A DNA stretch of 64,000 nucleotides from Paramecium tetraurelia (Eukaryota > Ciliophora > Oligohymenophorea > Peniculida > Parameciidae): NCBI RefSeq assembly GCF_000165425.1, contig NW_001799641.1:191027-255026 (forward strand), read 5' to 3'. The notes under the pieces are model-generated. The model was not told the origin of the DNA, made no database searches, and worked only from the letters and a program-made list of their open reading frames with translations. The position numbers were made by a program, and so were the translations under genes. Of the stretch, positions 3,285-63,235 are shown one piece after another. Within the stretch, counting starts at the first letter, position 1; the number at the start of each line of letters is the position of its first letter.

Positions 3285-5071
3285 ATTTAAATCAATTTTA
3301 TTATTGCAGAAATTATCAAAATTATGATAAATATATTTATCCTAATGATCAAAAACATTTAATCAGTTCTCAAAAAAGTGTAAAATCTCTAAACTCTCTT
3401 TACAAATCTCAATTTTTGAATATAAACTCAATTGGATCTTTTTCAAAATAAATATAGCAAATCCAATTTTAAAGTTTCAAAATTAATTTGTTGTAAATGT
3501 AATCTTAATGATTTTATTGGGAGACTAATGTAATTAGATTTCCTTATTTGAAATGGGATCAAAAAAATAATAAATGAATGATATTTAAGAACTAAATTTT
3601 TATGTTAAGAGCTTCTAAGGTAATGAATATCAGAAATAAATAATTTACTTAATGAAATAATATTATATTTAATAATATCCATTTTTCCCTACTAATAAAG
3701 CAATAAATTTAACTATTTAAATAGAGATGAACAAAATTCAACTTTTCTTTTTGTTTTGTAATCATTTTTAATTATTCTATTTAAATATAATCTATATTTA
3801 AAACAAAAGATAGAATTATATTTAAGATATTCTACACATTCCAATATTTATTTTTTCACTTAAAAACAAGTGATTTGTCATAAAGGCAAATTGTGGCGTG
3901 TAGAGATCTCATTTAATATAATGCTTTAATTACCTAAATTGAATTATAACCATAAAAATAATAATGAAGAATTTATATATAATTGAATTTCTATTTTAGT
4001 TCATTAATTACGTTTCAATTGGAATTTAAGTAGGGTCAACCTATGTTTCCTGTTTGATTGGTAGATAGTGAAAGTGCCATTTTTTGTAATAAGGATAAAC
4101 GAGGAAAAATATTTTTGTGGAAGATTGTGTATATTTGAATTGTTATTTGAAATAATCACAGGGACCATTATTAAATTGATAAAAAACTTAAGTTTCTAAA
4201 AAAGAGAAAAGAAGAGGGAAATTAAACACCTTGTTTAAGGAAAAAAGTAATTTATTGATGTTCCAATTCAATAATAATCCACATAAGATATTTAATTTTT
4301 ATATTGATATAAGTGGATTAGATGAGAACTTTTTTGATAAAAGTAATATTGATACATAATAGTAACTGTAGATTCAATAGAAGAGACTGAGGAATCATTA
4401 AAAAAGTATTATCAAAGTTGCATAATATTTTTAGAAATCCAAACTTTCAAATAGTTTGAGAGAATTACCATGAGAAACATAAGTTTTTGAATTCAAGACA
4501 TTGTTAGAGATGGAAAGTATTGAGGATCAAGTAAAATCCTCAGTTCGGTGTAAAGATATAATTTTGATACTCATGTGTTTCGTATGAGTTGACATCATAA
4601 CTAATTTTTAATTTATAATAGTTTTAGGTCCCAGCGTTTGAGTATAATATATAACAAACAAGTTGATGAATGTTAAGTTATATATAAAATTGTTTATATA
4701 TATGCAAAGATATACAAGAAAAGAACCTTAAATAAACAAGGAAGAGAGTAATTGGAACTTCTTTGAACACATAAATTGAGTTAGTTTTAATAACATTAAT
4801 AAATGTTAAATTTATAAATATCTCAAAATATTACTTTAATTTGAGGTAAAGTGGACATCGTTAAATACTTATACGTAATCTTACAAGTATTTAAGAAATA
4901 AGTAAAATGGGGATGATTAATATTTGAAAATAGAGATTTTAGTATTTTTTTTGATAACTTTGATCTTATCTATTATTTATTCTATTTTAAATCATAACAT
5001 GATATGGAAAAGATTTATTTTTCATTTGAAATATTTCAATTATTTTGTGTGATTAAGAAATATTAAAATAA
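3285..5071. other. long intergenic stretch, possible gene remnant inside
   Basis: This is the longest gene-poor stretch of the window, at about 1.8 kb. It lies between two divergently transcribed genes and should contain both promoters. The DNA is extremely A+T rich. Apart from the gene-like fragment listed at 4180-4587, I see no frame with protein-like composition on either strand, and no RNA gene. Confidence 0.6.
4180..4587 (+). pseudogene. gene-like fragment, possibly a relic
   Basis: A TGA-free frame runs from 4180 to 4470. It has mixed composition: a basic stretch (KKEKRRGKLNTLFKEK), then FNFYIDISGLDENFFDK, then a Gln-rich stretch. If a 30-nt GT...AG segment starting at 4454 is removed, the frame extends to a TGA at 4585-4587. 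There is no convincing start: the first in-frame ATG (4258) lies inside the conserved-looking part. I do not recognise it. It may be a decayed gene, the middle of a gene whose first exon I missed, or chance. Confidence 0.25.
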
Positions 5072-8000
5072 ATGATAACTTTTGCATTTTTTTTAGTAGT
5101 GATCTAAGCTGAATATGTGAAACAAATACTTCGTGATCTATCTGACTTGAGCGAATTTACACCGACGCCAAAAACTCAGGTTTGTTCAGTTCAAAATTAC
5201 GACATGGTGATTTTAGATCAACAAAATCCTTCACTATCCCTTAAGACACCAATTGAAAAAGCGCATTATTTTATACGTCTTTATGTTGACTATATGTTTT
5301 TGGAATAATGGTAAGGTGATACAATATAAGTACTACTTAATAACAATAAAATTGATGAATATACATACATATAGACTGATAAATCTGATTAAGGACGTAT
5401 TTGTAGGGAGTATATATATTAGTTATTCATTTTAGTTCCACCAATTCAAAATATATGACCAGGGAAATTGAGTTTTATCATATAGATTAGTATCTGGAAT
5501 TATAATTCTAGGTATTATATAAGGATTCAACTATTTCTTCGCCTGGTGCCGATTATTTACCTAAACTTGGAATCCGAAACATTTAAGTTAATGCATTGGA
5601 ATGTCACCCATAATGCTCAAGTTGCAGTGGCCCAACTGAAAATGATTGTAGAACATGTCCTTAACTTGCTAAAAAAGGCAAAGTATCCAATACATGCAAG
5701 TGTCCTAATTCAACCCCTTACATATATGCTGATAATTGTATTGCATATTGTCCCAAGAATACATTTCTAAATGAATTCAAAGTGTGTTTTGGAAGTTCCT
5801 TGATAAAAAACTTGGAGAGTTCCTTATTAAACTCTTTTGATCATGGACAAAATAATAAATAATCCTTGTGGTCAATTTCCATGACACGCACCACAAAGGA
5901 TCAATTACTATTTAGACATAAGGACAGTTATTTAATTGGTAAATTTGAGGAGAGATAGACCCTCACAGTTAGCTAGTATAGCTTGATTGGACATCATAGG
6001 ATAAGAGTAAGATTTAATTTATATTTATTCTACACATGGGCTGTTAATGAATATATAATAACAATTATTGATGATGTCAGACAAAAACCATTATTATATA
6101 GTAAGGATGGATTCATCAATTATGCAAACAATGATTCATGTACAAATTAGGAGATTAATGAATGCTAAGTTTTCCTTGTAGATTACTATCTGAATCACAC
6201 AAGTGATAATCTAAAAATATAAATATATAGTGATACATACAAATAGAGTACTTCGAGATGGGCAATATCTGATTTTTTTATAGATGCTTTGAAATGCACT
6301 GAAAATTGTGCGAAATGTTTGAATGATTAGGTTTGTGTTAAATGTGAAACTGGGTTTTTATTACTCAAGCAATAATGTGTAGTTACTTGTCCCCTATCTT
6401 ACAGTTTTTAGAAGGATAACAAATGTGTAGAAATGGATGATGAAACAGAATGTATTATAATAATTTAATTTTAGATTCTGAATACTTATTGAAAGAATTA
6501 GTTTCAACTAAACTTCATGGGACCATACCGGGTGTCACTAGTTACTTTAATGGATATCGTCATTTGGGAGGTCTATCAGTTTCAACTACAAGATACAACC
6601 AAAAATTTTAATATTTAAAACCCCATTATTAAATTAGAGCTGCATTCAAAGTGGATTTATTAAATACTAATCAATCTTAAGGATATGTGAGTATAAATCT
6701 AGGAAATTATACACAAATTGTTAATACAGATCCTGCTAGGATGTTTTAAACAACAACTGTTAATTTCACATTTGCTCACTCTTCAAAATATTTGAAATTA
6801 GCAATCATTTCATCTAGTTTCAATAATTATTTTAGATCAGGAATTTCAAATATGAGAATAACCATTGATTATTGTTATCCAACTTGTACAGCATGCACAG
6901 GACCAGGAATCAATGAATGTTTACAATGGTCATATGATCCAAATTATGATAAGTAATCAAATCTTTGTTAATTGTCTACCTACTTCTATAATGATTCATG
7001 CATTTCTTGTGACTCACAATGTTAATCATGCAGTCAGTAAAACTATTGTACCTTATGTTCATCCGCCTATACATAATCTGGATAGTCATGTTATTGTAGC
7101 AAAGGTTATTATTTGGATGAATCGAATACTTGCTAAAAGTGTTTTGAGAAGTGTTCAGGATGTTTAGGACCATTGTAAGAAGATTGCTTTGATTTATAAT
7201 CCAAAGAAATAGCTTGTGATATTTCAAAAGGGTATTAGAATGGATAAGAATGCAATGATGGCAATTATAATATTAGAGATGGTTGCTCTAATTGTATTAT
7301 GGATGAAGGTTGGTCATGTGTAAATCAAATAGGCAAATAATCAATTTGCATTAAATGTCCTCTGAATTGTATGGATTGTAAACAAAATTAAAATAAATTA
7401 TAATGCTTATAATGTTAGCCTGGCTATTTCTTTTATTAGAATGGATGTTTCCAATGTAAATCTGAATGTCTAGAATGCAATTACATAGATTAATGTACTA
7501 AATGTACTGTACCTACTATCATTCCATTAAATGGTAAATGTTCATATTGCGAGACTGAAAGGGGTTACTATGAAGTTAATGGAAAGTGTTAATCCAAATG
7601 TGGAGATTATCGATTGACCGCAGAAGAGCAATGTGATGATGGAAACTTAATTGATGGGGATGGTTGCTCTTCCAAATGTACTATTGAAACTGGATTTTCA
7701 TGTTCAAATGGAATATGCTCAGTTGTTTAATTATAAAACAATTTAGAATTAAAATATTCTAATAAAACTACTACTAATACTCTCAAATTAGATTTTGGTG
7801 AGTATCCAGCTAAATGTGATGAGAAGTATGTCAAAGTCTATCTAGAGAATTTTGATCCAAAAGACTTCAAGGTTTTCTTAAATCTAAAAGAAGAAGGTTC
7901 AATGAAATACTGTTAAATTTCATTTAAATTTTATAGAAATGTCAGAGATTATGATGTAATCCATGTGATATTTTATAAAAATAAATAAAGGCTATTATCA

Positions 8001-22852: not shown

Positions 22853-23387
22853 TCATTTATCTTAAGCTTCTCTGCTTCCAACAATTTTTTCCTCTCCCAT
22901 GGCTGAAAGAACGGATATCAACAAATCCCTTTGATATTTATGAATTCATTACTTGCCAGCATCAAATTAGTCTCTGATTTCCTTAACCAAATTGAAGTCA
23001 TCTTCAGTTTCTGGTAATTTGAGATCTTCTTTAGTTGATCCATCCTCATTCATAAGAATAACAAATCCATCTCCTTAGATATCCATCAAAGTATATTCCT
23101 TTTTGGTGACAAATGGAACATCAATATTGTGAGAAGTTGGGGCTGAATCTTCGTAAGTTTTGTTTGTGAAAATATCCTTTCCAACAATAGAAGCCTAAAA
23201 CATTCGACTAAATCATTACTTTAGCATGACCATGCTTTCCAGCTTTGGATGTAGACACATCGGTAATCTTGCATGGATGTCCTTTGAGCATAACGTAGCC
23301 TCCCTTCTTTAATGAGCCAGCACTTTCTGTGTAGGTGTGGGATGATCCAGCGTTTCCTTACTCAAATTGATTCTCGTCGTCAGACAT
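22853..23387 (-). CDS. translation factor eIF5A
   Basis: The protein has 161 residues and two introns, 23195-23219 and 22929-22952. Both junctions restore the conserved sequence. The hypusine loop [11 protein letters not shown] is intact, with the modified lysine at residue 51. The N-terminal SH3-like domain and C-terminal OB domain are both present, ending in [14 protein letters not shown]. eIF5A helps ribosomes through difficult peptide bonds and termination. This is the canonical copy; a divergent one lies at 62768-63235. It is convergent with the kinase gene, with 43 bp between stops. Confidence 0.96.
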
Positions 23388-62656: not shown

Positions 62657-62767
62657 TAATATTTCTATAAAATATTTATAGTAACTTTTATTAAATAAGT
62701 AAAGAATTATTTTCTGATACTATAATAATTATAATGTCGGAGATTTAGTTCAAATGAATTTAAACTA

Positions 62768-63235
62768 ATGTTTTATGATTTAATACCAGGTAAATAGGCT
62801 TACTTAGAATCAGTAGAGAATTTGCAACAAGGAACTTATTTATTATTAGATGAATGCCCTTGTAAAATCCTCAGACTTCAACTCTTCTTTAGTCGTCATG
62901 GTCATTGTGCATACATTGAAGTTGAAAATGCATTTTCAAAATAAATTGTTAAAATATAACGTTCGATTCACGGAAAATTGGAAATACCTTTAATTTAATT
63001 TGAGGAATATAGTTTGATTGGAATATAAAATGATGATTTTTTAACATTATTAAATTCCAAGGGTACAATTCGAGAAGATATAAAGATGCCCTAATTTAAG
63101 GAGTTAGCAAACAAATTAAGGATGTGGTTTGAAGAGGGAAAGTAATATATTATTAATATTTTTAGAGATATTATAGTGTAGATTATAAAATATATGGATA
63201 AAGAGGAAGTGTCAGAGGCAAGATGTGAGGAATGA
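62768..63235 (+). CDS. divergent eIF5A-like protein lacking the hypusine lysine
   Basis: The protein has 147 residues and one intron, 63142-63165. It follows eIF5A from end to end: GTYLLLDECPCKI matches [13 protein letters not shown], and SLIGIQNDDFLTLLNSKGTI matches the OB domain. The end, EEGKDIIVQIIKYMDKEE, matches [17 protein letters not shown]. In the hypusine loop the normal AGKHGH reads FSRHGH, so the modified lysine is Arg43 and the loop is one residue shorter. The intron falls at the same codon and phase as the last intron of the canonical eIF5A gene. Without the modification it cannot work as ordinary eIF5A. The start is the first ATG of the frame; a short upstream exon is possible. 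Confidence 0.82.

Follow-up and report, generated by a model that had tools for sequence, protein, structure and literature searches.

A divergent eIF5A paralogue with arginine at the hypusine position in Paramecium tetraurelia

eIF5A, an essential translation factor, depends on hypusine and is usually defined by the single lysine that carries it. A related fungal protein, HEX1, has no hypusine and a job outside translation, carries an SKL-like peroxisome signal and self-assembles into a crystalline core. On the human ribosome, hypusine is described as buttressing the CCA end of the P-site tRNA, while the N terminus of eIF5A is wedged against the D loop of the tRNA and its C terminus is in contact with uL1 (PMC10156603). 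Replacement of the lysine by arginine (K50R) was reported to block hypusine in mouse eIF5A2 (PMC10084858), and yeast was reported not to be rescued by K50R eIF5A (PMC2848580).

According to PMC11611912, the loop-tip residue of bacterial EF-P is not confined to lysine, unlike in eukaryotes and archaea. The same paper describes EfpL, which has an unmodified and functional arginine (Arg33) at the tip, and its authors suggest that two extra loop residues compensate for the missing modification. An eIF5A copy with arginine is unusual, since eukaryotic members of the family are described as having only lysine there; literature searches, judged by titles and abstract openings, turned up no eukaryotic eIF5A paralogue with an arginine tip.

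The divergent gene and its loop tip

The window, i.e., the whole stretch of 64,000 nucleotides of P. tetraurelia DNA that was analysed, holds one canonical and one divergent eIF5A gene with the following features.

62768..63235, plus strand: gene of the divergent eIF5A paralogue, 147 aa when read in the ciliate code, ending in TGA; PF01287 match at E = 2.7e-22
62768..63141, plus strand: exon 1, with the altered N-terminal domain and the greater part of the OB domain
62894..62896, plus strand: codon CGT, Arg43, at the hypusine position according to alignments (AAG, Lys51 in canonical copies)
63142..63165, plus strand: intron, 24 nt, phase 2, at the site of canonical intron 2
63166..63235, plus strand: exon 2, end of the OB domain and stop codon
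22853..23387, minus strand: canonical eIF5A, 161 aa, Lys51 in AGKHGH
23195..23219, minus strand: canonical intron 1, 25 nt, absent in the divergent gene
22929..22952, minus strand: canonical intron 2, 24 nt, phase 2, positional homologue of 63142-63165

The divergent gene runs from ATG at 62768-62770 to TGA at 63233-63235, contains no N and no frameshift, and has intact splice sites. Its sole intron (GTAATATATTATTAATATTTTTAG) interrupts the codon that canonical intron 2 interrupts, likewise in phase 2, and canonical intron 1 is missing. The canonical gene of the window, on the minus strand, has its ATG at 23385-23387 and its stop codon at 22853-22855. The coordinates, reading frame, lysine-to-arginine change and shared phase-2 intron given in the initial annotation all agreed with the sequence and the alignments, and the intron site and phase common to both genes upheld its proposal of a paralogue produced by gene duplication. 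A retrocopy was ruled out by the intron at a homologous site, and a pseudogene with a broken frame or splice sites by the lack of any break in the gene. A sequencing error at Arg43 was likewise ruled out, since CGT is three base changes away from AAG and differences from the canonical gene extend over the entire gene.

The N-terminus of the divergent gene is ambiguous. The ATG at 62768 is the simplest start; with an alternative ATG at 62754 and a 20-nt GT..AG intron at 62770-62789 the frame is also open (MNLNQCKQAYLES), and the loop is untouched by this choice. A short upstream frame at 62734-62757, MSEIQFK followed by a stop, resembles the canonical N-terminus MSDDENQF and lies in another frame. 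The 24-nt length of intron 63142-63165 is a multiple of three, and the intron contains no in-frame TGA, so an unspliced transcript would still be open, with a read-through product of 155 aa.

The genome search covered 69.07 Mb in 231 contigs. PF01287 matched five eIF5A places, namely four canonical genes and the divergent one. In these genes TAA and TAG encode glutamine, TGA is the only stop, and introns are 23 to 26 nt long. The four canonical proteins of 161 aa differ by at most two residues and share AGKHGH, with Lys51 encoded by AAG in 4/4; each gene has two short introns. No further divergent copy was found in the genome, as the divergent protein used as query returned the same five places (itself and the four canonical genes). 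The PF21485 search at E ≤ 1 gave eight places, all of them exons of the four canonical genes, and did not list the divergent gene. Deoxyhypusine synthase matched at two places, which, together with four canonical eIF5As, means that the normal pathway is covered elsewhere in the genome. DOHH gave no match with a 27-position HEAT_PBS model, a result that is not evidence of its absence.

In the alignment with the canonical protein, the divergent loop reads QLFFS-RHGHC-AY: HGH is kept, and there is one residue fewer both before and after the arginine. Residues 33 to 58 contain no lysine, and the lysines at positions 28, 35, 48 and 56, invariant in five eIF5As, are lost. With no lysine at the tip or anywhere from 33 to 58, hypusine would be expected neither at the normal place nor at a nearby substitute.

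Domain asymmetry and family membership

The OB domain model PF01287 gave 79.1 bits for the divergent protein (E = 2.7e-22) and 96.0 bits for the canonical one, both above the cut-off of 24.2. The N-terminal domain model PF21485 gave 13.0 bits, under its cut-off of 27.1, compared with 112.6 bits for the canonical protein. The statement in the initial annotation that the paralogue keeps both domains is thus strongly borne out for the C-terminal domain alone. The NCBIfam equivalog TIGR00037 scored 46.2, below the cut-off of 75.45 (canonical protein, 128.5), and the lysine at the hypusine position needed for a functional equivalog is replaced by Arg43. Identity to the canonical protein is 29%. The PF01287 match and the best PDB match (eIF5A chain 3hks_A, E = 8.5e-19) mean that the likeness to eIF5A is not due to chance. 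Judged by its sequence, the divergent protein is an eIF5A by descent that falls short of what identifies a functional eIF5A.

Invariant columns, defined from five eIF5As (that of this genome and four PDB chains), were kept unevenly, 10/13 in the C domain and 10/30 in the N domain (Fisher's test, p = 0.018). The acidic N-tail is lost. The net charge of the N-domain core without this tail changes from +3 in the canonical protein to 0 in the divergent one. When the acidic tail is included, the canonical N part has 9 basic and 10 acidic residues and the divergent one 8 and 8, and net charge does not fall; the change therefore concerns which residues are basic rather than their total.

The gene structure, the residue losses, the domain asymmetry and the branch-averaged rejection of neutrality described below are what the sequence analysis shows. 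To account for them, we tentatively prefer, with slightly less than even confidence, a hypusine-free eIF5A paralogue whose OB domain would mediate binding to the ribosome or to some other partner of eIF5A, and which would no longer take part in tRNA positioning and peptidyl transfer. After duplication, the gene would have lost the modifiable lysine, most N-domain invariants including several lysines, and the acidic N-tail, while the C-terminal OB domain would have been kept. The protein would be made and not hypusinated. In canonical eIF5A the OB domain occupies the E site of the ribosome, close to the L1 stalk, and the divergent protein would still use the corresponding surface for contact with the ribosome or with a different partner of eIF5A. 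Such a protein would act as a specialised or regulatory binder and, unlike hypusine, would not buttress the CCA end of the P-site tRNA. The OB domain may also serve a non-ribosomal partner.

Neofunctionalisation away from the ribosome, with the eIF5A fold reused for structural, RNA-binding or protein-binding purposes as in HEX1, is possible but on the unlikely side. It would agree with the loss of 20/30 N-domain invariants, the shortened loop and an N-domain core that is no longer positive. HEX1 demonstrates that such reuse of the fold can occur, and Woronin body proteins were detected as relatives of both the divergent and the canonical protein. However, by sequence it matches eIF5A far more closely (E = 8.5e-19) than it does HEX1 (E = 0.0076), it retains HGH beside the loop tip and 10/13 OB invariants, and its C-terminus, CEE, does not resemble SKL.

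Origin, gene age and selection

In a tree with 16 archaeal rows (the first in id order with 120-170 aa among 80 loci, leaving out locus L040), the divergent protein grouped with both Paramecium rows at 99/100 support. With seven eukaryotic rows only, it did not join the Paramecium rows, and the AU test did not reject a placement outside eukaryotes (p = 0.11 and 0.12). At nine sites with one residue common to four other eIF5As and a different one in Paramecium, the divergent protein shares 0/9 Paramecium states and 1/9 of the others' states. Its placement is unstable across row sets and must be regarded as not settled; the shared intron 2 appears to be better evidence of duplication than the tree.

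The archaeal genome scan gave no lysine-free tip, with lysine in 80/80 kept loci; this sample is biased, because one of the two search patterns demanded the lysine and 80 of 203 relatives were kept. L040 (501-996) is a eukaryote-like eIF5A with 53% identity on JAIYDP010000409.1, binned as a Verrucomicrobiaceae MAG, and is likely eukaryotic contamination of that bin. A viral origin was rejected, as no relative was found in three viral-contig scans; the query was the canonical protein or its alignment in two of them and the divergent protein in the third.

Four blocks, C222 (the window), C143, C195 and C231, each contain one canonical eIF5A with matching flanks. All four also have homologues of the gene that lies upstream of the divergent eIF5A, and this gene matches C165 too. 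The closest pair, corresponding to the latest duplication, is C222 and C143, with flank matches in C143 of 81%, 90% and 80%. C143 is without a 2143-bp stretch comprising the divergent eIF5A and its downstream gene, and has 24 bp between two of the matches (L026 3597-3620 in C143 versus L030 3735-5877). Because relatives of the downstream gene are present at C195 (77%) and C231 (86%), its absence from C143 represents a loss, and the C143 twin of the divergent gene was presumably deleted together with it. In C195 (L027 3614-6398), thioredoxin-domain (PDI-like) and protein-kinase frames lie between the upstream and downstream genes in place of the divergent eIF5A, and positions 4636-7799 match C231 at 86%. 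No relics of the divergent gene were found in five ohnologous stretches of 9.9 kb (best tblastn E = 2.6). A SET-like identity of the downstream gene was dropped, as the one exon scanned had no Pfam match at E ≤ 0.01.

At the neutral rate, the divergent branch amounts to 2.7 changes per codon, part of which may belong to the canonical stem. The upstream gene gives 2.35 between C222 and C143, or about 1.2 per lineage, so, barring strong positive selection, the divergent gene would be older than the latest duplication. An old origin would also fit the report that recent single-gene duplications are very rare in these species (PMC10195154). In the exon comparison of the downstream gene, the C231 rows were left out, as they covered a wrong stretch (39% identity over 49 codons); the comparisons that remained, with C195, gave a very large distance (8.4) or reached the bound (about 20).

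Selection was assessed with a branch codon model on 131 codons, comparing the divergent branch with the canonical copies. Averaged over the whole branch, neutral evolution was rejected with 2ΔlnL of 17.1, 24.9 and 31.2 when branch length was limited to at most 5, 10 or 55 changes per codon, respectively; an average of this kind would not reveal a recent loss of constraint. By domain, at cap 10, the values were 17.1 for the C domain and 7.2 for the N domain. The fitted divergent branch reaches its cap, making the size of omega meaningless. An omega shared with the canonical copies fitted worse (2ΔlnL 7.0), which indicates that the divergent branch is less constrained than they are.

The codon score, referenced to 21 long reading frames of the window, was +0.154 bits per codon in frame and −0.07 and −0.51 in the other forward frames; none of 2000 shuffles, whose mean was −0.24, reached the in-frame value. 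For canonical genes the scores range from 0.346 to 0.377. The missing canonical codon bias suggests lower expression of the divergent gene. The score was 0.059 in its N domain and 0.24 in its C domain.

Relaxed constraint or recent decay, in which the frame would be open by chance and the changed residues meaningless, seems unlikely. Such decay would agree with the eroded N domain and its lower codon score, with constraint weaker than in the canonical copies, and with the gap in sister block C143. At 2.7 changes per codon, TGA was absent from 19% of neutral simulations, so an open frame alone proves little. However, the neutral branch is rejected and coding composition has been kept. In addition, there is no frameshift and the splice sites are intact, although under the neutral fit some 354 changes (2.7 × 131 codons) would be expected; the C222-C143 alignments have 31 gap openings per 969 mismatches. 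Taken together, the open coding frame and the rejected neutral branch favour a retained and changed function without hypusine. The view of the initial annotation that a conserved, intact gene without the lysine suggests a new role is partly supported, namely as regards frame, composition and selection, with the qualification that the canonical copies are under stronger constraint. The word "conserved" gains no support from a gene that is the single divergent copy in its own genome and is missing from the sister block. All evidence for the divergent eIF5A comes from one genome.

Possible roles and comparison with known systems

The roles put forward in the initial annotation, a competitor on the ribosome or a factor for a special stage such as sexual development, are so far conjectural. 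A simple competitor at the peptidyl-transferase end is weakened by the loss of N-domain lysines and invariants, and an OB-domain-anchored role would be compatible with these losses and is left open by them. If an intact natural Arg-tip eIF5A is confirmed, it would constitute an evolved experiment separating OB-domain roles from hypusine roles. Gene silencing by feeding is routine in Paramecium.

An active elongation factor resembling EfpL, with its unmodified arginine reaching the P-site tRNA and helping at particular stalling motifs, is very unlikely. EfpL provides the precedent of a functional unmodified arginine, and in both proteins the OB domain is kept better than the N-terminal domain, KOW in EfpL (PMC11611912). 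However, the EfpL loop is two residues longer, whereas the divergent loop, compared with the canonical one, has lost a residue both before and after the tip, and flanking lysines 48 and 56 are lost. A broader proposal, that the divergent protein is the eukaryotic counterpart of EfpL, a natural hypusine-free eIF5A binding the ribosome through an Arg-tipped, remodelled N domain and forming a second class of ciliate E-site factor outside polyamine control, is quite unlikely. A decoy or regulator that binds deoxyhypusine synthase and stays unmodified is hardly credible, since the N domain has lost the majority of its invariant residues, including some in the loop, even though HGH is retained beside the tip and a catalytically dead deoxyhypusine synthase paralogue is reported to activate that enzyme in trypanosomatids (PMC3663545).

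Compared with canonical eukaryotic eIF5A, the divergent protein has the same order of two domains, the OB domain and HGH after the tip, and its gene has the intron 2 site of the canonical genes of this genome; it differs in having arginine for lysine, a shorter loop, an N domain under the Pfam cut-off and an equivalog score under its cut-off. Its closest parallels are EfpL and HEX1. With bacterial EfpL (YeiP, an EF-P paralogue) it shares, as far as PMC11611912 describes that protein, arginine at the loop tip (here Arg43) and the better-kept OB domain. EfpL differs in its three domains and its lengthened loop, and the NCBIfam EfpL models were not among the three families matching the divergent protein at E ≤ 1. 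Fungal HEX1, the major Woronin body protein, is likewise a sequence relative of eIF5A (also PMC5656841); the divergent protein is distinguished from it by its much closer match to eIF5A and by the lack of an SKL-like peroxisomal tail. Arginine-type EF-P also has arginine at the tip (PMC11611912); in contrast to the divergent protein it is bacterial and rhamnosylated by EarP.
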